In this document: positions 6,371 to 25,508 of the stretch, piece by piece
Layout: every line of letters starts with the position of its first letter
Numbering within the stretch: the stretch's first letter is position 1
IMG/VR virus record: IMGVR_UViG_3300042934_000901
Coordinates: 1-41,224 of that record
Direction: 5' to 3' (one strand)
From: a virus
Length of the DNA: 41,224 nucleotides
Notes under the pieces: generated by a model
Database searches by the model: none
The model's input: the letters and a program-made list of their open reading frames with translations, nothing else
Told to the model about the DNA's origin: nothing
Translations under genes and position numbers: made by a program

Positions 6371-9300
6371 TTATTCTTGCCGCTCTCGCCGTGGTCTTCT
6401 GCTCTTTAGATCGCTTAGCCTGGGGTCCATGTCATTGGCCAAGACATCATAGGCGTTCCAGAACCAATCGTTAAATTGATCCGGGTACCGCAGACCAAAG
6501 GCTGCGATGCTGGAGCCGCTTTCCAGTAGATCGGCAATACCGGCTTTACCTTCTGCGTATCGCTTGCCGACGCCGTAAATCTTGATCATTTCATCCAGGT
6601 TTCTTTCGGCCGGTGTGATACCAAAGCCGAAGGTCCGGTATCCTAGTGCCGTATCGAGGACAGTTTTAGCCATGGCCCCGCCGACAGGGATCATTCCCAG
6701 CGGCCAGGCTGCCACTTCTTTGAAGAACCATTTCCCCCAGCCGTCCTTCTCATCGTCATCATCCGGCCATTTACCGGACAGCAGCGCCGATAGAGCGCCA
6801 AACAGCAAATACCGGACACCGACAAATTTTATCATACGCATGGCATCTTTTTCTGTCTGGTAAATGCCCTTTTCCATCACCCATCGGTTATATTGGGTAT
6901 TCATGAAGGTCATGAACAAGGTCAGCAGCTTTTCAGTAGGTGAGCCGCGCTGCATGAGTGAAGTGTCCACTCTACGGCCGGAGCCGGTACTGCGTTCAAT
7001 AATAGTTTCTGCAAAGTGGACCGCTTCTTTCTCCATTTTTCCTTCTGCAATGGCTTTCTCATAGGCACCCTTGAACATCGGAATATCACTTAACTGATCG
7101 GCCCACGCCAACATACCGGAACCAAAATCGATTAGTTTTTCCTGAGTAATCGCTATCTTGGCACCTGGCCCTAGCATCGCCTCCTTTACCGGTTCAGAAA
7201 TATTTTCTCTTTCCTGCGCCCACAATAATGGATTGCCGTATCTTGCTTCCCGCAGCTCCCGAATGTTGTAATCCGGGCTTTCCATCTTGTCCCGCATGAG
7301 CGCCGATTTGGCATATACCCAGTCGCGGATCTCCTGGGCCTTAGCCGTATTGCGGAGCGCATGAGGAATATATTCACCCCAGCCATACTTCCAGTAAGCG
7401 TCCAATGCGTCCTTATCACTAAACCCCTTTACGGAATCGCCGTATAAAGTCGGATTGGCCATGTTCTGGATAATCGTAGCCGGACGGAACAACAGATTTT
7501 TGATGACTGTTGCCGATCGCACAAAAGTGGAAAAGTCATTGAACATGCCTTCCACTACCTGGTCCTTGCCGCTGCCCATTGCCCGCTGCCATTCGGTAAT
7601 TACTTTATACCCGGCCTCGCCCAGCTTCCGGCGCAGGACATCGTTCACCTCACCGCGCCGCATAACCTTGTTGATGTCGTGCATGATTGGCCGGAAGGCA
7701 ATGTCATGGGAAACATCATTCACATGACTAAAGATATTGGTCAGATCCAGATCGACGGCGAATTTCGCCCCGGCCTCACGGCTCTTAGATGCACCGGTGC
7801 GGGGATATGGCATGACGCCGATATACCCTTCAGCCAGGGATCTCTCCCGGTTTAGTTCAGCCTGCTTCGAGGCGCGTGGATCTTGCTTCAATGGATAATA
7901 CCCACCGCGCAGATACACTTCGGAACCATCACGCATTATGAATGATAGGGGAACCGCTTCCACTTTTGCGAGTGGTGATCCGGTCATGCGCTGGATCATG
8001 TTGGTGTAAGGATCGTAGAGAATATTGATTGCATCCCAAATCTGCTGAGCCAGCTGAAAATCTTTAGGGTCCAGATACTTGACCAGAACTGCCTTAACCG
8101 ATCCTTCATTCCATACCGAGTTATAGTCCAAGCCAAAGGGCCGTGAGCTTATTAGACGCTTTTTATTGGATGCTGATCCCATGTTCAGCAAAACCGCCCG
8201 CAGTGTGTTCTTTGTGACCGACTGCCCCCACTCACTGATATAGATTTTCTTGTGAGCATCGAGCAGCCGCTGCTGCTTACTGATTCCTACTGATTCATAC
8301 CCTGCGTCAATAGCTTCATAGACCTGGCGCTTTAACCGGCTTTCAAAACTAAGGGCATCTGACAGTGAATAGTACATGGCCTTGGACCATTCGCCAAACT
8401 CCTTGTAGCTATCGAGCTTTAGGAAGAGCTGGGCGGGCCTGGTTAATCCTTTTGTAAACTTATCTACAAAGCTCGGATTGGCCTGTTCAATTTGCTCCGG
8501 CAAAACATCCTTAAGTGGTATCGTTGCATGGACCATTCGCATGACCGTCGCTCCCAGCCCGTCCTTATTCAGAGCCACAAAGCCGTCTGCATTGACGCCA
8601 TTCTTAGCCATTTGCTTAATATTGCGCAACGCAATTTCCAGATCCTTAAACTCCTGATACTTCAAGTACCGTGGATTCATGTATTCCTCAACACTGTTAA
8701 CCAGCCATTCCGGAATATCTACCATGTCCGGATTATCCTTGGTCATGGCCGCCACATAACCGGATAGTGATTCCTGCTTCGCAGCAATGTTATAATCCTT
8801 CCGGACGTAACCGGCCCGGCGCAGCAGATCAGCCGCTTGAATAAAGTGCCGGTCCGATTTAATGGCCAGCCCTTCCTTATCCAACTCATCAGCCACCCAG
8901 GTATCCCGGCCGGAAGACCGCTGCTTTTTCATGAACCGCTCAATCCGTTCAAAATCGCGCCGGACTCGCAGGCTTTCCTGGACCATTGCGTGGTTATACA
9001 GCTGCGCTGCAGCATGCTCCCTGGCAGCCTGTAGATTACCGTCCCGCAACGCCTTTGTCTTGCTTTCTGCTGCCCGGCGCTCCCCGCTCATCCAAGTAGC
9101 CAGGCGCATAGCCTTGTCAAGCGGCATATCGGCAATTGCCTCCTGTGCAGCTGCCTTGGCAGCCTCCCGCTTTAAGCGCATTTCCTTGCGGCTGTTCTCA
9201 CGGGATATCACCCGGCCCAGTTTTTCCTCAATGATCGCCTGCTCTGCCGCTATCAGCATTGCGCTTTCATCCGAGTACATAGCCTCCTGGACTTCCTTGT

Positions 9301-12300
9301 GCAGAGCGATAGAATCAGTCAGGGAATCCTTAAAGGCTGTCATGTGATCGTCCAGCCGGTTCTCAATCGTTTTCTCTGAGGTGTTATAGGTGATTACGTT
9401 CTGAGCCAGTTCAGAACCGGACGTAAAGCCGTGCAGTTCGGCAATGAGTTCAAACTCCACTGCCTGATCCGGCGTAAGCTCCTTGACTTTACCTGACTTT
9501 TTCTTCCGCAGTTCCGAAATTTGCCGATCCATTTCCTGGGCCTCGGCCGTATCGCCTCTCCCCCGCTGCACCAGGGATGCATGAATTGCTTCCAAGGTAT
9601 CCAGCGGCCCCATAGCTGATTCAAAGTCTTCCGGAACAAAGGACTCATTGCCTAAGTACGATTTGGCAACCCGCTTGGCATCGCGTTTGAAAGTTTCCCT
9701 GATGGCTGCTTCCGCTAAGTATAACGGCTGGCCTTTTACCTCTGCCGTAATGCGTACCCGGGCTTCTTCCTCCTCTTCAGCAATCTTTTGCCGGTTTTCA
9801 GCTGTAAATTCCTTAAGCAGGTGCGCCCTGACCTGTGCCTCAGCCCGTTCCCTTGTCCGCTCCAGCTGCCGGTCAAGATCAGCCTTGGCCTGATCACTGA
9901 GGGAATTGTAGACATCATCAGGGATTCTGGCCAGATACCCATCGACAGCCTGCAACTGATCAATTTCCTCCTGGCTGGCCAGCAGCCGGTCAAATACTTC
10001 CCGGATCTCAGGATTGATTTTTACCCGCAGATTGATAATATCCCGGTACACTTCCGTCAGCCATTCGGCAAAGCGTTTAAACAGGCTCCGTGTTTCAATG
10101 GATGGCGCTTTGCCTTCCATGATATAGGCTTCAGCAGCCCGCGCCAGTTTTTCATGAGCGGTGCGGTGATCCAGGATAGCCCTGCGAATTTCGGCCCTTT
10201 CTCCATCGGCAGCCAGCAGCTCATCCGTCATGGCCCATTCTTCATTTGTTCCCTGTGCAGCCAGTGCTGCCGCCTCTGTCCACCGCTCACCCGTAAGCCC
10301 AACAAAGTCCAGCGCTGTCTGCCGGTCCTTCTTCATCCAGGCAGGAGCATTCTCCTGAGCGCCAACCTCCAGCAGATTCTGCATAAAAAAATGTCCAACC
10401 ATCTCATGCACCAGCGTTGAGGGGTCAGACTGCTCAAACAGGGTAATGATGGCCCGGCCTTCCTCCCAGTGGATAGCGCCTTTTGGGTCATTTTTATCTT
10501 GGAAGTAAACAATCGCATCACCGCGCAGATCAGGAGGCACGATTTGGCGTTGTTCACCGGTCAGAGCAGCGCGTCCTGCCGTGTCGCGGGCTTCGATCTC
10601 TCCCGCGAGATTACGGTATTGTTCTACAGGTGACATGACTTTTCTCTCGTCAAGAAGCTTATACCGCTGCAGTTCCAAATTAAAGGTTTTTAATTCAAGA
10701 TCTTCATACTCTGCCATTTGTTCTGCAAGTTGATACTGCCTATTCTCTTCATCGACAGTTAACTCTCGCGCTTTACTGAAGACATATAACTGATTGAATT
10801 CGCGATACAAAGCAGCATATTCTTTGTTTCCATCGAGAATATCCTTAAGCTCCTTGTCAATCTTACTAATTTCTTTAGCAGTAACATCTAAAGGGCTAAA
10901 CATATCAGGATTGCCGCCCCGGGCAAAATCCTCCTGGGCCTGGATCACATGCTGCACTTCATGAAGTAATACTATTCGCCGTTGTTCGGGAGGCAGTTCA
11001 ATATTGATTTCAATCGTGTTGATCGACTGATCATAGCTGCCATTAGTACCGGCCGGCAGCTTAACAAATACCACCTTAACATCTTTCATCCAGGGATAAG
11101 CCTTATAAAGCGTTGGATGGTCCAGGACATTTCCCAGGAGCGGAGCTTTCTTCCGGCTAAGCTGAGCCAGCATCGTGTCGGCCTGGCTCTCTAATTCGGA
11201 CCGAGCGCTAGTATCCTTCATTTTTTTAGCCTTAGACAAAATCCCGGATATTTCACCGGTCATGGATTGCTCCATGCCTTTCAAGTCAATCAGAGCAGCC
11301 TGGCTGTCATCGATCTCAAAGCGCCATTTGCCATCCATACCCTTAAACCAGCCGGTCTGCTTCCGGATCTCTTCCCGGGAGGTTCCTTGGCTCTCCAACT
11401 CCTGGGCTTTAGCCAGCTGCGTCTGATCGGCCGTGTAGGCAGAAAAACCGGCATATTGCTTCATTGCATCTGCCGGTATTTCACCCTGGCGCAGTTGAGG
11501 CGCTTTCTCTCGCAAATACTGGGCAGGATTATCGCTCATGACGTAGGCGTTTTTCACGAGTGCTATCAGTCCCATTCTGGCAACATCCGTTGGCAGTCCA
11601 TTATCCGTCCACTGCTTATAGATGGCATCGGCTTCCGTCCGAACGTCCGAATCACGCCGGTTAATTTCTGCCGCCGTCTTCAGCACATCCTGCTGGCTCC
11701 GCTCCTGTAAGCGCCTAATTGTATAGCCTTCGTCCGTAGCGGCAATATCTTCGGCTAGGGCCTCATGAATAGCAGGTTCCTGGCTGGCGGCTACGTTATA
11801 CTTACCGGTAGGAACTTCTATCATGTGACCGGTTTCCAGTGCAGTCTGCACCTGCTCTTGTGTAACTCCCAGCTTCTCCGTCAGATCCGGTACCGCCGAC
11901 TGAAAGAGCGCTTTCGGATCAATATACACAACCGGCTCACCATTGCCATTTTCAAACTGTTCGACAATCTCCGGGCTGATCTTCAACAGCGGCGACTGAG
12001 CAATTACCTCCTGGCGCTGCCGCAACTGATCTACATGTGCCTTAGCCATTTGCGACTGCACCGCAACATGGATAGAAGAAGCACCGCCGCCCAGAGGAGC
12101 CGCAACAAGGCCGGAATAGATCGCCTCTGAGGTAATCTGCCGAAACTGCCGGACAAACTCATCTTTCTGCTGGCTGACCGTCATGTCCGGATTGCCTGCC
12201 CAGATCTTTGAAACTGCATCCGGGTATTGCTGCAGAAACTCAGTAGCCGCTTCCGTAGCAGCTGCATCAAAGATGGTGAGGGCTTTCTTCTTCGCCGTTG

Positions 12301-13177
12301 ATCCAGCCGGTATTCGGTTTAAAATCTTGCCTAGTGCTACATTCTCCAGCGCCGCCTGAGCAACAGCATTGGCTGCCGATCCGGTAAACGCCCGGCCAGG
12401 CGCGACTCCTTCCTTGCGCATCTCATCATAAGAGCCGCCAAAGATCTGTGCTCCCATCATGGCCCCGGCCCCTACCGGACCACCAACCGACCAGGCCGCA
12501 ACCTGACTGGCCAGTTGCGGCACACCTTCATAAATGTGTGAGACAAGCTGCGCCGTATCATACTCCTGACCTAAGATGCTAAACTTCTGCCCTTGGAACT
12601 GGTATTCCGTAGGTGTTAGTGCATCCGATTCGGATAACTGCTTTAAGAAACGCACCTTCTCATCGCCGGTGATGGCCCCCAGAAAAGAAAAGCGCTTCGC
12701 TGCGTTATACAGTGTCTGATCAGCAGGACTGGAATTAGCCAGTATTTCCCTCTCGTTTTCCGTAGCCGTTTCCACAACGCCTCGTGCAGCATCCACCAGG
12801 CTTTTGCCAACCTTCTGCGCTCCACTTTTCAGAAAGGCACCAGGGCTGGCCAGCGCCTCCAGGGTGGACAGTGTTTTCACGCTCGGTGCATCGCGGACAA
12901 TGGCCATGCGTAGCGGATCAGACAGGAAGGATCTTGTCTTCGGTGAGTTCTTCCCTACATCCTCCAAGTCACTGGCACCGATCAGCGCCTGCACTGCTGC
13001 ATTCGGATTGCGAGCCGCTTCGGTAATATCCATGCCGGTGGACACAGATAACCGCATAATCTTGGCCGCCTGCTCCCGGGGCATCCTGGATACCTGCGTC
13101 AGAAAATCATTTTGTGGTACGCTGAAGTCTTTATTTTGTTCGGCAAAAGTCTGTATTTCTTCCGGTGTTAAGAGCAT
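6371..13177 (-). CDS. Giant polyvalent virion/ejection protein with two HExxH motifs
   Basis: The 2,268-residue protein is one of the very large internal virion proteins of podoviruses, expected to be packaged and ejected with the DNA. Residues about 200-300 are Ala/Gly-rich and hydrophobic, possibly membrane-inserting. A zinc-peptidase-like region has LLHEVQHVIQ near 737 and GEIEARD near 860 (LPD23-type large polyvalent domain). A second HEMVGH motif lies near 922. Long charged coiled coils fill about 1080-1450. The last 350 residues (ERSTGSGRRVD, FMTFMNTQYNRW, then a hydrophobic stretch) match the C-terminal LPD38-type domain of polyvalent proteins. ATG 13177 has GGGGGAG 5 nt upstream; an in-frame GTG six codons earlier does not. 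It is far larger than T7 gp16 (about 1,300 residues). Confidence 0.85.
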   Translation of the reverse strand: MLLTPEEIQTFAEQNKDFSVPQNDFLTQVSRMPREQAAKIMRLSVSTGMDITEAARNPNAAVQALIGASDLEDVGKNSPKTRSFLSDPLRMAIVRDAPSVKTLSTLEALASPGAFLKSGAQKVGKSLVDAARGVVETATENEREILANSSPADQTLYNAAKRFSFLGAITGDEKVRFLKQLSESDALTPTEYQFQGQKFSILGQEYDTAQLVSHIYEGVPQLASQVAAWSVGGPVGAGAMMGAQIFGGSYDEMRKEGVAPGRAFTGSAANAVAQAALENVALGKILNRIPAGSTAKKKALTIFDAAATEAATEFLQQYPDAVSKIWAGNPDMTVSQQKDEFVRQFRQITSEAIYSGLVAAPLGGGASSIHVAVQSQMAKAHVDQLRQRQEVIAQSPLLKISPEIVEQFENGNGEPVVYIDPKALFQSAVPDLTEKLGVTQEQVQTALETGHMIEVPTGKYNVAASQEPAIHEALAEDIAATDEGYTIRRLQERSQQDVLKTAAEINRRDSDVRTEADAIYKQWTDNGLPTDVARMGLIALVKNAYVMSDNPAQYLREKAPQLRQGEIPADAMKQYAGFSAYTADQTQLAKAQELESQGTSREEIRKQTGWFKGMDGKWRFEIDDSQAALIDLKGMEQSMTGEISGILSKAKKMKDTSARSELESQADTMLAQLSRKKAPLLGNVLDHPTLYKAYPWMKDVKVVFVKLPAGTNGSYDQSINTIEINIELPPEQRRIVLLHEVQHVIQAQEDFARGGNPDMFSPLDVTAKEISKIDKELKDILDGNKEYAALYREFNQLYVFSKARELTVDEENRQYQLAEQMAEYEDLELKTFNLELQRYKLLDERKVMSPVEQYRNLAGEIEARDTAGRAALTGEQRQIVPPDLRGDAIVYFQDKNDPKGAIHWEEGRAIITLFEQSDPSTLVHEMVGHFFMQNLLEVGAQENAPAWMKKDRQTALDFVGLTGERWTEAAALAAQGTNEEWAMTDELLAADGERAEIRRAILDHRTAHEKLARAAEAYIMEGKAPSIETRSLFKRFAEWLTEVYRDIINLRVKINPEIREVFDRLLASQEEIDQLQAVDGYLARIPDDVYNSLSDQAKADLDRQLERTRERAEAQVRAHLLKEFTAENRQKIAEEEEEARVRITAEVKGQPLYLAEAAIRETFKRDAKRVAKSYLGNESFVPEDFESAMGPLDTLEAIHASLVQRGRGDTAEAQEMDRQISELRKKKSGKVKELTPDQAVEFELIAELHGFTSGSELAQNVITYNTSEKTIENRLDDHMTAFKDSLTDSIALHKEVQEAMYSDESAMLIAAEQAIIEEKLGRVISRENSRKEMRLKREAAKAAAQEAIADMPLDKAMRLATWMSGERRAAESKTKALRDGNLQAAREHAAAQLYNHAMVQESLRVRRDFERIERFMKKQRSSGRDTWVADELDKEGLAIKSDRHFIQAADLLRRAGYVRKDYNIAAKQESLSGYVAAMTKDNPDMVDIPEWLVNSVEEYMNPRYLKYQEFKDLEIALRNIKQMAKNGVNADGFVALNKDGLGATVMRMVHATIPLKDVLPEQIEQANPSFVDKFTKGLTRPAQLFLKLDSYKEFGEWSKAMYYSLSDALSFESRLKRQVYEAIDAGYESVGISKQQRLLDAHKKIYISEWGQSVTKNTLRAVLLNMGSASNKKRLISSRPFGLDYNSVWNEGSVKAVLVKYLDPKDFQLAQQIWDAINILYDPYTNMIQRMTGSPLAKVEAVPLSFIMRDGSEVYLRGGYYPLKQDPRASKQAELNRERSLAEGYIGVMPYPRTGASKSREAGAKFAVDLDLTNIFSHVNDVSHDIAFRPIMHDINKVMRRGEVNDVLRRKLGEAGYKVITEWQRAMGSGKDQVVEGMFNDFSTFVRSATVIKNLLFRPATIIQNMANPTLYGDSVKGFSDKDALDAYWKYGWGEYIPHALRNTAKAQEIRDWVYAKSALMRDKMESPDYNIRELREARYGNPLLWAQERENISEPVKEAMLGPGAKIAITQEKLIDFGSGMLAWADQLSDIPMFKGAYEKAIAEGKMEKEAVHFAETIIERSTGSGRRVDTSLMQRGSPTEKLLTLFMTFMNTQYNRWVMEKGIYQTEKDAMRMIKFVGVRYLLFGALSALLSGKWPDDDDEKDGWGKWFFKEVAAWPLGMIPVGGAMAKTVLDTALGYRTFGFGITPAERNLDEMIKIYGVGKRYAEGKAGIADLLESGSSIAAFGLRYPDQFNDWFWNAYDVLANDMDPRLSDLKSRRPRRERQE

Positions 13178-13202
13178 AAGGACTCCCCCATTCACCTATC
13201 TA

Positions 13203-19935: not shown

Positions 19936-20343
19936 TTATAATTCCATATCGTCATTGATATACATGACAACCTTGCCGGCCGTCATCGGACCAGTGGCAA
20001 CCGTGAAGTAAGCCCGCAGGTACTGCTCCAGATTTTGCATAGGTACCGGCCATACCCGGTGATATCCTTTTGCAAAAGTAGCTTTGCCTGTTGCAGGCAT
20101 TAAAGCCTGCAGCGTTGCCGGACTGCTAAAAGCGGCTGTATCATCGCTCTGCAGATCAACGGCCATTGTTGCAGCACCATCAGCCGTAAAAGTTTCTGTC
20201 ACTCGAAGATGCAGGTACAGTGGCCGCATCAAGGGGCCGGGAGAACAAAGATTAATCACTTTTGTGGAAGCGGCACTGGCCGTTACAGCCTGTGCCGGTA
20301 TTCCATTCGCCTGCCTGGTAAAACTAAGCTCAACGTCATACAT
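19936..20343 (-). CDS. Bbp16-like capsid cement protein
   Basis: The 135-residue beta-rich protein begins MYDVELSFTRQANGIPAQAVTASAASTKVINL and ends with an acidic YINDDMEL. The composition, the LQSDDTAAFSSPATLQ motif and placement directly after the major capsid gene match the Bbp16 family of capsid cement/decoration proteins named from Bordetella phage BPP-1. It would stabilise the shell after expansion. GGAGGG precedes the ATG. Confidence 0.75.
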   Translation of the reverse strand: MYDVELSFTRQANGIPAQAVTASAASTKVINLCSPGPLMRPLYLHLRVTETFTADGAATMAVDLQSDDTAAFSSPATLQALMPATGKATFAKGYHRVWPVPMQNLEQYLRAYFTVATGPMTAGKVVMYINDDMEL

Positions 20344-20377
20344 AAGTAAACCCTCCTTAAATCATTATTGTAAACTA

Positions 20378-21364
20378 CTAGGAAATGGCTGCCTCGTCTG
20401 TGTCAAGTGCATCACACAGCCGTAGTGGTACACCTAAAAATGCAGGAGTTATCTTTTTATTTGCCAGTTCCATCATGGTCAGAAAGGCATTTGCCTTGTT
20501 GATTGCCTTTTTAGTAAATGCAGCTTTTACTTTCCTGTCACAGTAAAAACGTGCACGCGGAGAAAGCTTCGGAACACTTTCAATCATATCAATCATTATG
20601 TTAAGCAAGTCTGCTGAAGTATCCGATCCACTACCAATACTCGCTAATGCAATCCGATCAATATTGCCACAACGAACAATTTTTTTGTAATTACGAACAG
20701 CAATACCCGTCCTCCATTCCCATAAATCTCGGTAAGCAGGCCAGTAAGTTCCATCATCAAGCTTGACAAGTTCCTCGCCATAGTCCTTGTGACTCAATCC
20801 AACTTCCGTATTCTTAGGATAAAAACCGCAGCAAGATTCTTCGCCCCAATCAATCAGCCAAAGGGAACGATTTGTCGATCCTGTCCCACCAGCTTTAAAC
20901 ACATAATTGCCAAAATCAGGTGTTGTCGTTGCTTTATAAAAATGCGCCAGACCATTAAAGCTCTGTGCATCTTCAGTTTTAACCCCATAAAATAATTCAT
21001 CTGCAATTTTGTTTCCCATAGCTCCAATGTGTGGCCTGTTTTGATTAGCCCGAAATCCAGCCTTATCATCAGCGGCATCTACAAGTTCTTTATCTACCAT
21101 TCCAAGGGTAGTAAACAAAGCTGCCTCCACTTTCAATTGCTTATGAGTCGCTTTATCAGAACCAATCCCTTGATTTACACCGCGAATACTAACTACTGGG
21201 TTAGTAGCCAATTGAGTAGTCTGCAACCCATATTCTCTATTCCCCGGAACAACATACATATCCTCAATGATGTCATTCTCCTCAGCTAAGATATCAATTA
21301 CCTTAGCTGCTCTGCCATCCGGGTCTTGCTGGGACGCATAATCTTTCCAAGTCACTCTATCCAT
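20378..21364 (-). CDS. Major capsid protein (BPP-1-like HK97-fold lineage)
   Basis: The 328-residue protein begins MDRVTWKDYASQQDPDGRAAKVIDILAEEN. It follows the scaffold-like gene and precedes the cement gene, the position of the major head protein, and it has a typical length. Recognisable features are the ATNPVVSIRGVNQGI stretch, GLAHFYKA, WLIDWGEESCCGFYPKNTEVGL and YCDRKVKAAFTKKA. No signal or membrane segment is present. A good GGAGG precedes the ATG. The exact fold is inferred from the family, not visible directly. Confidence 0.85.
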   Translation of the reverse strand: MDRVTWKDYASQQDPDGRAAKVIDILAEENDIIEDMYVVPGNREYGLQTTQLATNPVVSIRGVNQGIGSDKATHKQLKVEAALFTTLGMVDKELVDAADDKAGFRANQNRPHIGAMGNKIADELFYGVKTEDAQSFNGLAHFYKATTTPDFGNYVFKAGGTGSTNRSLWLIDWGEESCCGFYPKNTEVGLSHKDYGEELVKLDDGTYWPAYRDLWEWRTGIAVRNYKKIVRCGNIDRIALASIGSGSDTSADLLNIMIDMIESVPKLSPRARFYCDRKVKAAFTKKAINKANAFLTMMELANKKITPAFLGVPLRLCDALDTDEAAIS

Positions 21365-21389
21365 GTACTAACTACCTCCGTTATTTTAC

Positions 21390-21989
21390 TTATTTCATAT
21401 TAGGGTACAGGGCTTCGCCTAATGATTTTGGCTTAGTCGCCTTGCTGGGATCAATGAATTTTCCTTCCGAAATTTGCTCGCCAATAGACACAAACAGAGC
21501 AATCATTTCCGGATGAACATTGAAACCGGTTTCATTCAAAAAGTCTTTGAAGCTGTCACCAGCAAAGCGGTTCAGCGTATTCTTAGCAAGATTGATTTCT
21601 TCAGCCTTATACTTTTTCTCGCTTTCTTTCATCCAGCCTTGGACCTGCTCCTGTTGCTTGGCCTGCATACTAGCCATACGTGAGCCGTATAGGTCAACTA
21701 GCTCCTGTGCCTGCTCCTGTGTAAGGTTAAGCTTTTTGGCTGTTGCAAAAAAGTCTCCCGCAGTTTCACGGTCAAAGGTCATGCCTTCAGGAACATTAAA
21801 ATCCGCATACTCTTCTGGTGGACCAACTGGCTTTGCAGGTGGCTCTGACGGTGGCGTTGGCGGTGTAGCAGGTGGCTCTGCAGTTGGCGCTGGTGGCGTG
21901 GCAGGCGGTTCTGCTGGCGGCGTTGGCGGTACAGCAGGCGGCTCATCCGCATGATTCTGTAAATTAAATACAAAACGTTGTTTATCCAT
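21390..21989 (-). CDS. Scaffold-like head protein with proline-rich repeats
   Basis: The 199-residue protein has three parts: a short N-terminus (MDKQRFVFNLQNHAD), a disordered Pro-rich repeat region (residues about 16-59), and a helical, charged C-terminal domain (LNLTQEQAQELVDLYGSRMASMQAKQQEQVQGWMK..., SLGEALYPN). Charged helices with LTQEQAQ...L.....M...AK.QEQ are common in phage scaffolding proteins, and it lies just before the capsid gene in transcription order. It probably directs procapsid assembly. GGGGG precedes the ATG. Confidence 0.75.
   Translation of the reverse strand: MDKQRFVFNLQNHADEPPAVPPTPPAEPPATPPAPTAEPPATPPTPPSEPPAKPVGPPEEYADFNVPEGMTFDRETAGDFFATAKKLNLTQEQAQELVDLYGSRMASMQAKQQEQVQGWMKESEKKYKAEEINLAKNTLNRFAGDSFKDFLNETGFNVHPEMIALFVSIGEQISEGKFIDPSKATKPKSLGEALYPNMK
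21813..21944 (-). repeat. 33-bp tandem repeats encoding EPPAxPPxPPx
   Basis: Within the scaffold-like gene about four units of 11 residues (EPPAVPPTPPA, EPPATPPAPTA, EPPATPPTPPS, EPPAKPVGPP) are encoded by degenerate 33-bp repeats. The last unit is shortened. Copy number could vary by slippage without frameshift. Confidence 0.8.
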
Positions 21990-22000
21990 GATAATTCCCC

Positions 22001-22327
22001 CTATTCATTACGGGCTACCGAAGCATTAGCCCACATAACAGCCTCTTCCAGTTTGGTCATTGCTAATGATTTTTCCCTCGACTTAGGGCATAACTCATCA
22101 ATCAAATAGGCAAGCTCCTTAGCCTTATTTCTTAACGCTTCGTACTTTACCGGCTGACCATTGTTAGGCGAGTGATAGCTGAAATTATTTTCGATAACAG
22201 CCTGATCCGGGGTAACCGGAGTATCTTTTATATTCGGCCACACATAGTTACAACTACCGCAGACGTTGTTCCCATTTGGCCTTCTTTCAGTAGACACTCT
22301 AACGCCTTGGCATTTTGGACATTTCAT
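22001..22327 (-). CDS. Zinc-ribbon plus Acb2/Tad1-type hairpin domain protein
   Basis: The 108-residue protein starts with a zinc ribbon (C3, C6, C23, C26). Residues about 50-107 read YHSPNNGQPVKYEALRNKAK, then ELAYLIDELCPKSREKSLAM and TKLEEAVMWANASVARNE. The pattern H.P..GQ..KYE.iR..AKELA..Id.LcP.SrE.SLA.TKLEEAVMWANA.iARN is that of the Acb2/Tad1 helical hairpin, the core of phage proteins that bind cyclic nucleotide signals of CBASS (Acb2) or Thoeris (Tad1). It is expected to act as an oligomeric cytosolic sponge; which ligand is bound cannot be told. ATG 22327 is favoured by GGGGG 7 nt upstream. It lies inside the head gene block, so it should be expressed late. Confidence 0.82.
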   Translation of the reverse strand: MKCPKCQGVRVSTERRPNGNNVCGSCNYVWPNIKDTPVTPDQAVIENNFSYHSPNNGQPVKYEALRNKAKELAYLIDELCPKSREKSLAMTKLEEAVMWANASVARNE

Positions 22328-22332
22328 CACAT

Positions 22333-22361
22333 AACCCCCAAACTAAAATTACAGGGGGATT
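22333..22361 (-). promoter_or_regulatory. Possible hairpin masking the ribosome binding site of the Acb2/Tad1-type gene
   Basis: On the minus strand CCCCC (22354-22358) can pair with the GGGGG (22335-22339) that serves as ribosome binding site of the zinc-ribbon/Acb2-Tad1 gene, closing a 14-nt loop. Pairing would reduce initiation. It could also be a minor stem with no role. Confidence 0.35.
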
Positions 22362-22423
22362 AGCCCTGCGCAGATATGGACCACCTCCTTAAAGTACCTT
22401 CATAAATCGAGTGAGCAGCCATT

Positions 22424-22756
22424 TCACTTCTTATCACCTCTTTCTTTTTCAAGAATCGTTTCGCGCAGCTTCAGTTGAAATAAGAGGTATTCCCGTTCGG
22501 CCTTATGAACCAGGTCAACGCCGTCTAGCCCTAATTCCTTCATGCATCCTTTCAATAATAAAGCGACATTGCGCATCCCTTCTTTAAATTCCGTCTGACC
22601 GTCCGGGCTAAAGCTTATATTGTCTTGTCCGCAGCGCATGACAAGCCATTGAAAAAACCTGCGTCCCTGGGGCAGTTCCATTACAGCCTTCAGGTCATGC
22701 AGGTTTTGTTGTTGTAACTCTATTGCTATTTTCTTTTTCAGCTGCTCCTCTGTCAT
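22424..22756 (-). CDS. Bbp19-like virion-associated protein
   Basis: The 110-residue helical protein contains LKAVMELPQGRRFFQWLVMRCGQ and TEFKEGMRNVALLLKGCMKEL. L...pEGRRFl..LL..cg and EG.RN.aL.l are signature patterns of the Bbp19 family found between portal and scaffold genes in BPP-1-like podoviruses; its function is unknown. It overlaps the portal gene end by 4 nt (ATGA), indicating coupling. Confidence 0.75.
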   Translation of the reverse strand: MTEEQLKKKIAIELQQQNLHDLKAVMELPQGRRFFQWLVMRCGQDNISFSPDGQTEFKEGMRNVALLLKGCMKELGLDGVDLVHKAEREYLLFQLKLRETILEKERGDKK

Positions 22757-24450
22757 TGACCGGCACCGCCTCCCAAGCCGGGAATAAGCGCATCTAACGC
22801 ACTGCCTTGCCCGACAGGAGTATTACCCAGTGTATGCGCTCCCTGTGCAGCAATCTGAGCCATTTGTACATTCTGTTCCATTTGCTGCCGCTGTTCCCTG
22901 GCAGCACGGATTTGTTCAACCTTTTTATCATCCAGGATAAGGGACGGTGGAATACTGAGCATTTCCCCTGCCCGGTCAAGCGTTTCATCCCGATCCCACT
23001 TATCCATAACAGCAGGATCAGCACTACCCAGCTTTATCGCCAGATCAGAGAACTCATAAATCGCGGACATACCAGACAACTGTTGCGCCTGCGCCATGAT
23101 ATTAACATATTCAATCTTCATTACCCGGCCCTCAAGTACTTCAGGCGGTTTAGGGATACGACCACGCTTGTATAAGATTTCAAAAGTACGGTCAACAACC
23201 GGCTTCAGATATTCCGGCTGCAGCAAGGAAAAGGACGGGCCTATCAAACTCATTTTTTCCTGTACCCGCTCAATAATCTCTTGCCTGGTTACATTGCCAT
23301 AGTCGATATTCTCCAGCATACGGAACAGATCAACAAAAAAGTGACGCTTAATAGTCTCTTCTTTACTGGCCTTTAATGCATTGGCATCTGCCAAATTCAG
23401 CTTAACCTGATACAATTCCCTAATTGGAATATCATTCATACCACTGGAGTAATAATTCACTCCATTTGGCAAGGAGTTTAAGGCTGAACTCATGCTTTCT
23501 GCCGGTAGCTGTACCGGTGGATCAACCTGCTTTTTCACACCAACATGAATATCCTCATCGATGACCTGCACAGACTTACTATTTCTCAGCGCATAATGTC
23601 CTGGGCCAAAGCCATACACATCAGCGCCTTTTGTTTCCCATCGGCTGCACACTACAGGGAAGCTGTCGAAGCCGCCAATATCCAGGTAGTCACCGTCTTT
23701 GCACTGGTCCATCCAGTAGACATCAATGAACGGCTTATTCCATTTGTCAATCTTACCATTCTCAGCTGCCTGGTTGGCCATAAGCAGATGCTTTACTGCA
23801 AATACTTCCTCCAGCCGGTTTTGATCATAGCACCGCTGAACAATCTCAGGTACATTCTCCCGGCCAAACATGTCTATCAGTGCAGCAACTGTCATGTGAA
23901 TATTACGGGCAAATCTCCGAATCCGGCCGGTATGATCAACGCCGATAGCGAATTCACCAATCGTAAAGGTGCGATACCGGACATCACTTTCTTCATCTTC
24001 CACAACAAACATAGAAGCTGTGCCAAATGTTCCGCGCTCCTTATGGAACTTGTGACTTTCAGGATAGAAGTTCGACCGGCTAAAAGCATCATGCATGATT
24101 TTGGTTAAGTCATCATACCAATACCGGACTTCTTCCATCTGAGCAATCTCCGGATCAGGATCAGTCGCCCGGAACCACAGCCGTGTTGGAGAGGTGACAC
24201 CGTTCTGCATACCGGCACCATGGGTATTACTCGCATCAATACCGACCGTATTAATCAGGCTATCATCTTTTCGCTTACCGTCGTTTGGTTTGTCTCCATC
24301 AAAGGAACCTAGATACGGATTAATATAATCCCGTATTTCCTTCCATTCCGGAATCCAAGATTGCTGCTCTTGAAACAAGGCTTTATGAATGCGGTTTAGC
24401 TGGCTTTTCTTCAAAAAGTCATTTTCCTTGAGTCCATTCATATACTGCAT
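22753..24450 (-). CDS. Portal protein (head-to-tail connector, podovirus type)
   Basis: The protein of about 565 residues matches the podovirus head-to-tail connecting protein. Landmarks are KALFQEQQSWIPEWKEIRDYINPYLG near the N-terminus, GMQNGVTSPTRLWFRATDPD, HKERGTFGTASMFVVEDEESDVRYRTFTIGEFAIG and the C-terminal helical crown rich in Gln (RAAREQRQQMEQNVQMAQIAAQ). It forms the dodecameric ring for DNA entry and exit. A GTG at 24462 would add four residues, but AGGTGA is spaced 8 nt before ATG 24450. The 5' end overlaps or abuts the preceding small gene. Confidence 0.9.
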   Translation of the reverse strand: MQYMNGLKENDFLKKSQLNRIHKALFQEQQSWIPEWKEIRDYINPYLGSFDGDKPNDGKRKDDSLINTVGIDASNTHGAGMQNGVTSPTRLWFRATDPDPEIAQMEEVRYWYDDLTKIMHDAFSRSNFYPESHKFHKERGTFGTASMFVVEDEESDVRYRTFTIGEFAIGVDHTGRIRRFARNIHMTVAALIDMFGRENVPEIVQRCYDQNRLEEVFAVKHLLMANQAAENGKIDKWNKPFIDVYWMDQCKDGDYLDIGGFDSFPVVCSRWETKGADVYGFGPGHYALRNSKSVQVIDEDIHVGVKKQVDPPVQLPAESMSSALNSLPNGVNYYSSGMNDIPIRELYQVKLNLADANALKASKEETIKRHFFVDLFRMLENIDYGNVTRQEIIERVQEKMSLIGPSFSLLQPEYLKPVVDRTFEILYKRGRIPKPPEVLEGRVMKIEYVNIMAQAQQLSGMSAIYEFSDLAIKLGSADPAVMDKWDRDETLDRAGEMLSIPPSLILDDKKVEQIRAAREQRQQMEQNVQMAQIAAQGAHTLGNTPVGQGSALDALIPGLGGGAGQ

Positions 24451-24454
24451 GTCA

Positions 24455-24661
24455 TCACTCACCTAACAGCTTTTTCTTAGTACTGCCGGTATCAGCCAAA
24501 CCGGAGCCGCTTGTCAGGATATTGTTTTTAAACCCTGCCGCCGCTGCCTGCCGCTTACGCTCTTTATCCGAGGCTTGCTTCATAGCTGTTGCTTCCGAAT
24601 TGTCGACCTGCCGGGGAGCCGGGGCTATCGGCTCTGTCTTTGGCGTACTTGAAAAACACAT
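24455..24661 (-). CDS. Small head-region protein, unknown function
   Basis: The 68-residue protein begins MCFSSTPKTEPIAPAPRQVDNSEATAMKQASDKERKRQ and has a Gly/Ser/Lys-rich end. Short Met-Cys-Phe-Ser proteins with Pro- and Ala-rich sequence are common between terminase and portal in this phage group. No domain is evident. A longer open frame to 24727 overlaps the terminase; AAAGGAG 11 nt before ATG 24661 decides the start. Confidence 0.65.
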   Translation of the reverse strand: MCFSSTPKTEPIAPAPRQVDNSEATAMKQASDKERKRQAAAAGFKNNILTSGSGLADTGSTKKKLLGE

Positions 24662-24665
24662 CTCA

Positions 24666-25508
24666 TCATCTCCTTTGCAATGCGTTGAACCGCTGACCAT
24701 TATTGCCAAAATGCAAACCATTCGCACCTGGCGGTGGCAGTTGCTTCTTCTCTACACCAAAAGTCATGGACGCCACATAGCCAAAAGCATCCATGATATG
24801 GCTGTACTCATTCTTGTCCGGATCTTCCGAATAGCGCCCTGCCACCTCTTTGCGCCGATAACCACCGGTAAAGGCCGCGATAATAAAAGTACAACGCGGG
24901 TCAATCAGCAGCATTGGCTGACCGTCCGGCGTTGTAGTTGTGAGAACATCCCGTATAGCATTGTCCCGCTTTTCAAAGGATACCGGGCCTGGAAGAACTT
25001 TAATGCCGTATTCTTCGCGCAAAATCTGATTTGCTGTCTTCTCATCGGTCTGGGCCCGTTGATTACCTGCCGGATCTCCATAGTCCGTAAACGAATATCC
25101 CGGGAAAAAGGCGCTGCTTTCTGACCTTACCACACGACCATGCGCTTTGATCCCACAGTCCCAGCTTTGCAGCTCCGGATACAGCAGCATAAGCTGTCCT
25201 TTTGCTGTCGGCTGCACACATACTGTCGCAGGCGTCAAGCCATAATCCCAGCCGCGACAGATTGGCCGTCCAGGAATTGGCTGCAGCGGATTCTTTGCCA
25301 CATGATAGTCATACCGGAATTCAGGGTAATAAGCCTTACCGGCAAATACATCAAAGTTAATTTCGTATTCACGCTCCCATGCGGCATGTGTCATACCGGC
25401 TTTATTCTTTGCCTTCCATTCCGGCGAACGCTTGTCGGGATCTGCCGTGTAATGGATTCGCAGGACATGCACGCCTTGGGGCGTTTTGTATTCAGTAATC
25501 CCTTCCAC
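24666..25508 (-). CDS. Large terminase, nuclease part (separate frame)
   Basis: The 280-residue frame starts at GTG 25508 and carries the RNase H-like nuclease of the packaging motor. IHYTADPDKRSPEWK and WEREYEINFDVFAGKAYYPEF are linker motifs. GWDYG (D88), YGDPAG (D145) and HIMDAFGY (D240) give the three acidic metal ligands. The GTG shares its G with the TAG stop of the ATPase part (TAGTG). AAAGGGGG 7 nt upstream could serve as a ribosome binding site. Alternatively this part is reached by a -1 frameshift at the slippery AAAGGGG just upstream. The nuclease cuts concatemers at initiation and headful. Confidence 0.85.
   Translation of the reverse strand: MEGITEYKTPQGVHVLRIHYTADPDKRSPEWKAKNKAGMTHAAWEREYEINFDVFAGKAYYPEFRYDYHVAKNPLQPIPGRPICRGWDYGLTPATVCVQPTAKGQLMLLYPELQSWDCGIKAHGRVVRSESSAFFPGYSFTDYGDPAGNQRAQTDEKTANQILREEYGIKVLPGPVSFEKRDNAIRDVLTTTTPDGQPMLLIDPRCTFIIAAFTGGYRRKEVAGRYSEDPDKNEYSHIMDAFGYVASMTFGVEKKQLPPPGANGLHFGNNGQRFNALQRR

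Follow-up and report, generated by a model that had tools for sequence, protein, structure and literature searches.

Phage sponges for alarm signals are usually regarded as free-floating sinks, and T4 Acb2 (Vs.4) is a proven sponge. Acb2 forms hexamers with pockets for both cyclic dinucleotides and cyclic trinucleotides. Acb2, known from T4 (Vs.4) and from a Pseudomonas phage, belongs to the Pfam family Acb2_Tad1_hairpin (PF24729), and its protomer has a short N-terminal helix followed by two long antiparallel helices (PMC12043709). Tad1 has its hairpin, which belongs to the same Pfam family, at the C terminus, behind an N-terminal antiparallel beta-sheet domain. Two further sponges, Acb4 (PF13876, defined as the Acb4 sponge family by Chang et al., PMC11722364) and Tad2 (PF11195), have folds and pockets unrelated to that hairpin.

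Here we describe a gene in a viral stretch of 41,224 nucleotides (IMG/VR record IMGVR_UViG_3300042934_000901, positions 1 to 41,224; hereafter the window) whose product resembles Acb2 in its hairpin but adds an N-terminal zinc ribbon and a linker. The gene occupies a slot in the late head operon, unlike T4 vs.4, which is found among the vs and regB genes. The added ribbon resembles the TFIIB-type zinc ribbon (PF08271) in its CPxC...CxxC spacing and beta-ribbon, with matches below threshold across the ribbon proteins (E values from 1e-5 to 0.04). It differs from it in its TERRPxG signature and in being attached to sponges, and there is no sign of a transcription role.

The sponge gene and its hairpin payload

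The gene was taken from the list of open reading frames and spans positions 22001 to 22327 on the minus strand (108 aa, stop codon included). It starts with the ATG at 22327, with an alternative GTG at 22330, and its stop codon ends at 22001; the plus strand of the same interval contains many stop codons. Residues 1 to 32 (22232 to 22327, minus strand) form the zinc ribbon, MKCPKCQGVRVSTERRPNGNNVCGSCNYVWPN, with its cysteines at C3, C6, C23, and C26, as the preliminary description had placed them; Pfam Zn_Ribbon_TF (PF08271) matches residues 1 to 30 just below threshold (E value = 2.6e-5, 24.1 versus 29 bits). The linker (residues 33 to 45; 22193 to 22231, minus strand), read directly from the sequence, holds no ATG or GTG that could serve as an internal start for a ribbon-free isoform. 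Residues 46 to 108 (22004 to 22192, minus strand) make up the Acb2/Tad1 hairpin domain, which was delimited from the Pfam match, the AlphaFold2 model, and the conserved residues, and which ends the protein with TKLEEAVMWANASVARNE. PF24729 matches residues 50 to 106 well over its curated cut-off (E value = 3.6e-24, 85.1 bits versus 27), and it matched none of 14 control genomes. An identical protein is encoded by one further viral contig (IMG/VR contig L002, 99.7% nucleotide identity). On its sequence, the protein is a member of the PF24729 hairpin sponge family, which is itself already known.

We collected 80 viral relatives of the hairpin, most of them ribbon-free and about 67 to 75 residues long, with a few carrying other N-terminal extensions. 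Across 54 aligned relatives, 13 positions are invariant, including Y51, H52, R66, P81, S83, R84, E94, W99, N101, and R106. A profile of the family matches the solved structures of Acb2 homolog 43 (E value = 2.2e-5) and Tad1 (E value = 0.006). The AlphaFold2 model of the protein has a short helix at residues 40 to 48 and long antiparallel helices at 59 to 79 and 84 to 107, the layout of the Acb2 protomer. Its mean pLDDT is 83, with block values of 92 to 96 over residues 61 to 100; its weak part is the ribbon (block pLDDT, 71 to 83), and the overall pTM is 0.58. The top BFVD fold matches were Acb2/Tad1 hairpin proteins (E value = 5e-4), and a Foldseek search of the PDB with the composite ribbon-hairpin model gave no significant best match. 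The Pfam profile, the family profile against solved structures, and the predicted fold all agree with the Acb2/Tad1-type hairpin that had been proposed from the sequence.

Next, we compared the payload with the two described hairpin sponges. T4 Acb2, taken from NC_000866, matches PF24729 at an E value of 7e-20. Its Tyr8 is needed for cyclic-dinucleotide binding (PMC12657218) and aligns by two methods with Y51, the tyrosine that is invariant in the family. T4 Phe82, a contact residue that stacks on the ligand and does not define the family, aligns with A105, indicating that the putative pocket chemistry differs from that of T4 Acb2, and we therefore file the protein under PF24729 rather than as Acb2 in the strict sense. 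The helix turn reads SREKS, like the REKS turn of Acb2 homolog 43, whereas Tad1 has SREN; moreover, the beta-sheet domain found at the N terminus of Tad1 is absent from the protein, which has the zinc ribbon there. The payload is probably of the Acb2 type, with a predicted pocket not identical to that of T4. Judging from its family, the protein very probably binds a signal: the hairpin would assemble into oligomers, and these would sequester cyclic nucleotide alarm signals. As a ligand, gcADPR appears less likely than CBASS-type cyclic di- or trinucleotides. Neither a CBASS SMODS synthase nor a Thoeris ThsB was found in the ribbon-carrying lysogens (G001, G302, and G312), which is uninformative.

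Hairpins of this type also occur in other arrangements. A metagenomic phage (L058:5635-6192, plus strand) has a PF24729-type hairpin behind a RyR domain (PF02026, E value = 1.3e-13), and an isolated phage, Sulfitobacter phage phiCB2047-B (HQ317387, 54486 to 55007), carries a RyR-hairpin fusion with 40% identity to it over 95%. Phage proteins with a RyR domain either break down or sequester cADPR signals (PMC13232231), and the fusion thus looks like a two-signal counter-defence protein. In another contig (L006:5653-6216), the hairpin is fused to a HAD_SAK_2-like phosphatase domain (sub-threshold match), and hairpin regions in several Paenibacillus phages, such as those of Paenibacillus larvae (e.g., KT361655), are annotated as "phosphomannomutase." One Negativicutes genome (G303) has a ribbon-free hairpin gene (L142:9941-10165) between a portal-like gene and prophage capsid genes and, in addition, two neighbouring ThsB-TIR matches (G303:C134:2019-2732; L198 and L199).

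A zinc ribbon common to four sponge families

A scan of the genome collection returned a prophage protein of Anaerospora hongkongensis that was matched by its ribbon only (88% identity over 32 residues). The remainder of this protein belongs to PF13876 (E value = 2.4e-25) and matches the solved Acb4 structure (E value = 1.3e-5); a second phage, L112, also encodes a ribbon-Acb4 protein. We then searched 381 Negativicutes genomes blind to the payload, using residues 1 to 52 of the window protein and subsequently a profile of five ribbons. The ribbon was found in 3 of the 381 genomes (E values = 4e-28, 2e-25, and 3e-25), and the next match had an E value of 1e-3, leaving a gap of more than 20 orders of magnitude. 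All three matches are sponges, each of another family: besides Acb4, the ribbon heads Tad1 in genome G302 (solved structure 8kbb, E value = 1.4e-15) and Tad2 in genome G312 (PF11195, E value = 6e-21; solved structure 9eib, E value = 6e-19). Together with the window protein, the ribbon heads four sponge families. The ribbon-sponge records known to us number six, in four payload lineages, such that the link between ribbon and sponge represents few independent events.

The window ribbon is 62 to 88% identical to those of four other proteins with other payloads. Among these five proteins from four payload families, 17 ribbon columns are invariant, including all four cysteines, and the shared signature M-x-CPKC ... 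TERRPxG ... CGSC ... W-x-N is present in the window protein. Between payload types, 46 to 94% of synonymous ribbon sites differ versus 8 to 28% of nonsynonymous sites; with both Acb4 copies included, pS is 0.41 to 0.94 and pN is 0.05 to 0.28. Judged from these codons, the ribbon is under purifying selection at the protein level.

These data bear on the reading that the ribbon has no targeting role and either aids stability or oligomerization or merely hitch-hikes as a 5' recombination seam for payload exchange. Such a seam would leave the 5' end constant while the payloads behind it are exchanged, the ribbon is rare and absent from the other Tad1 and Tad2 relatives that we found in viral contigs, and hairpin proteins work without it. 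However, what is maintained is the protein sequence and not DNA identity, since nucleotide identity across payloads is only 58 to 80% and pN is far below pS, which argues against a mere seam; in addition, four structurally unrelated payloads would not require one stabilizer. We consider a ribbon without targeting role rather unlikely and a single shared job of the ribbon, regardless of payload, fairly likely.

The distribution of the ribbon follows the host more than the phage. Among 399 genomes drawn from across the phylum, it was matched in Anaerospora only, i.e., in Negativicutes only, and yet it occurs in two unrelated phage types; a search of annotated phages gave nothing better than an E value of 0.7. 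That the ribbon is limited by host lineage, whereas phage type sets no such limit, suggests a partner on the host side; this is the least certain step of the argument. The ribbon may tentatively be seen as a docking element that attaches the sponge to a protein or nucleic acid of the host lineage, instead of to the head proteins of one phage.

Wider scans of viral contigs returned the same few lineages and four diverged TERRP ribbons (L148 to L151) attached to other or uncharacterized payloads, none of them known as sponges. In one (L149:2561-4156), a TERRPDG ribbon stands at the C terminus of a portal-like protein; in another (L150:4001-4348), it precedes a phrog_2452 domain, which is C-terminal in uncharacterized phage proteins, and this payload is a candidate new sponge or inhibitor. 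Two further N termini were not counted as the same ribbon: contig L010 has a four-cysteine segment before the hairpin, but a different one, and contig L019 encodes a zinc protein as a separate reading frame just upstream.

The slot between the Bbp19-like and scaffold genes

On the upstream side, the sponge gene is bordered by a Bbp19-like gene (22424 to 22756, minus strand), whose PF25181 match is sub-threshold here (E value = 2.5e-4) and whose homologues in G302 and G312 pass the cut-off. The downstream border is a scaffold-type gene (21390 to 21989, minus strand; phrog_458, E value = 1.8e-36), assigned from this match and from its position in relatives; the PHROGs label of phrog_458 is "protease." These are the neighbours named in the preliminary description. 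Further out lie the portal or head-to-tail connecting protein (22753 to 24462, minus strand; PF12236, E value = 1.2e-123) and a major capsid protein of the GP7 type (20378 to 21364, minus strand; PF20911, E value = 1.3e-82). Phage relatives of the portal include epsilon15 and other podoviruses, and the window shows synteny with the G302 prophage (helicase, 72%; terS, 59%). The phage is a temperate epsilon15-like podovirus. Given the gene order and sequence shared with G302, its host is very likely a Negativicute of the Sporomusaceae type.

We compared the order of these genes across relatives. The window, G302, and G312 share the order portal, Bbp19-like, X, scaffold, and capsid, where X is the ribbon-hairpin gene in the window, ribbon-Tad1 in G302, and ribbon-Tad2 in G312. 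In nine relatives found via the capsid protein (L153, L154, and seven more), the slot is empty and the Bbp19 gene abuts the scaffold gene; the nearest relative, L153, lacks the sponge gene although its capsid protein is 72% identical to that of the window. The capsid proteins of G302 and G312 are 74% identical, their payloads differ, and their ribbons are 62% identical, showing that the payload has been exchanged between close relatives while the ribbon was kept. The hairpin family was known before; the ribbon architecture of four sponge families and the swapping of payloads in one slot are new, and we found no description of ribbon-headed sponges in the literature searched, whose coverage of the central papers was incomplete.

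The same comparison speaks to the idea that the gene is an accessory of head morphogenesis whose hairpin has lost immune-signal binding. The position between Bbp19 and scaffold and the missing counterpart of T4 Phe82 would suit such a role. However, the closest relatives, with 72 to 74% identical capsid proteins, do without the gene, others have Tad1 or Tad2 in its place, and binding-type residues such as Y51, R84, and W99 do not vary among 54 relatives that come from unrelated phages, which makes this role highly improbable.

The Anaerospora prophage is of another phage type, with a portal that has no significant similarity to that of the window. Its ribbon-Acb4 gene, located between the terminase and portal genes, is the second gene after a Tad1-like gene, and an AAA_33 kinase gene separates the two. 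In L112, the end of a Tad1-type reading frame directly precedes ribbon-Acb4 (upstream of 2989), and in both L107 (7073 to 8381) and L112 two different sponge genes are neighbours between terminase and portal.

Overall, a modular counter-defence gene, in which an exchangeable sponge stands behind a conserved ribbon, is the best explanation of the locus and in our judgement a probable one. The ribbon would be a shared, swappable element heading Acb2-type, Acb4, Tad1, and Tad2 sponges, and three phages of the epsilon15-like type each hold a ribbon-headed sponge in the late-operon Bbp19/scaffold slot, the payload differing each time. It is possible, and we propose it with more reserve than the docking itself, that the ribbon is a universal carrier bringing chemically unrelated sponges to one cell site in Negativicutes phages, for instance to a host component close to the site at which alarm signals arise or are read, the payload being exchanged as host signalling defences change. 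A ribbon head common to four sponge families implies that the location or contacts of a sponge matter. The ribbon can also serve as a payload-blind bait, making new proteins found behind it candidate sponges or pointers to new signals. Finally, the presence of different payloads in one fixed slot of phages whose capsids are 74% identical is direct evidence of the sponge type changing as a cassette. Panoptes is a counter-measure that punishes one sponge type, and cassette swapping bears on how phages avoid counter-measures of this kind.

Position in the head block and expression

The preliminary description had given weight to the placement of the gene in the head block and had asked whether its product might be packaged. 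We rejected this placement as remarkable: most hairpin relatives adjoin terminase, portal, minor-head, or tape-measure genes, and the large neighbours of ribbon-free hairpin genes are mostly proteins of these kinds, such that hairpin genes commonly have this position and it does not speak for packaging. A related reading makes the ribbon a virion-loading tag, which, by binding a component of the head or portal, would get the sponge packaged and carried into the cell with the DNA, to act before gene expression. It is in keeping with this that every ribbon-sponge gene has portal or head genes beside it, that three of these genes share one slot, and that L149 encodes a portal-like protein with a diverged TERRP ribbon fused to it. 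We nevertheless consider a virion tag improbable. The ribbons of Anaerospora and the window are 88% identical despite unrelated portals, which argues against a tag read by one particular head protein; hairpin genes without a ribbon adjoin head and packaging genes just as often; and in the relatives L028 and L030 a hairpin lacking the ribbon is kept immediately upstream of the portal.

The sponge gene is co-directional with the head genes and close to them. No private promoter was seen in the 96-bp gap before it, and a scan of positions 20000 to 25000 gave promoter-like sites in numbers no higher than in shuffled sequences. From this operon layout, late expression of the sponge gene is likely.

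Two minor features of the window were also observed. A short inverted repeat of a C-run and a G-run (CCCCC...GGGGG; 22328 to 22380, minus strand) lies just upstream of the start codon of the sponge gene and overlaps the likely ribosome-binding site, with a terminator-like stem flagged at 22369 to 22351. In the late block, positions 6371 to 13195 (minus strand) encode a large polyvalent protein of 2274 residues with LPD23, LPD22, and a DUF6782 metallopeptidase-like region.
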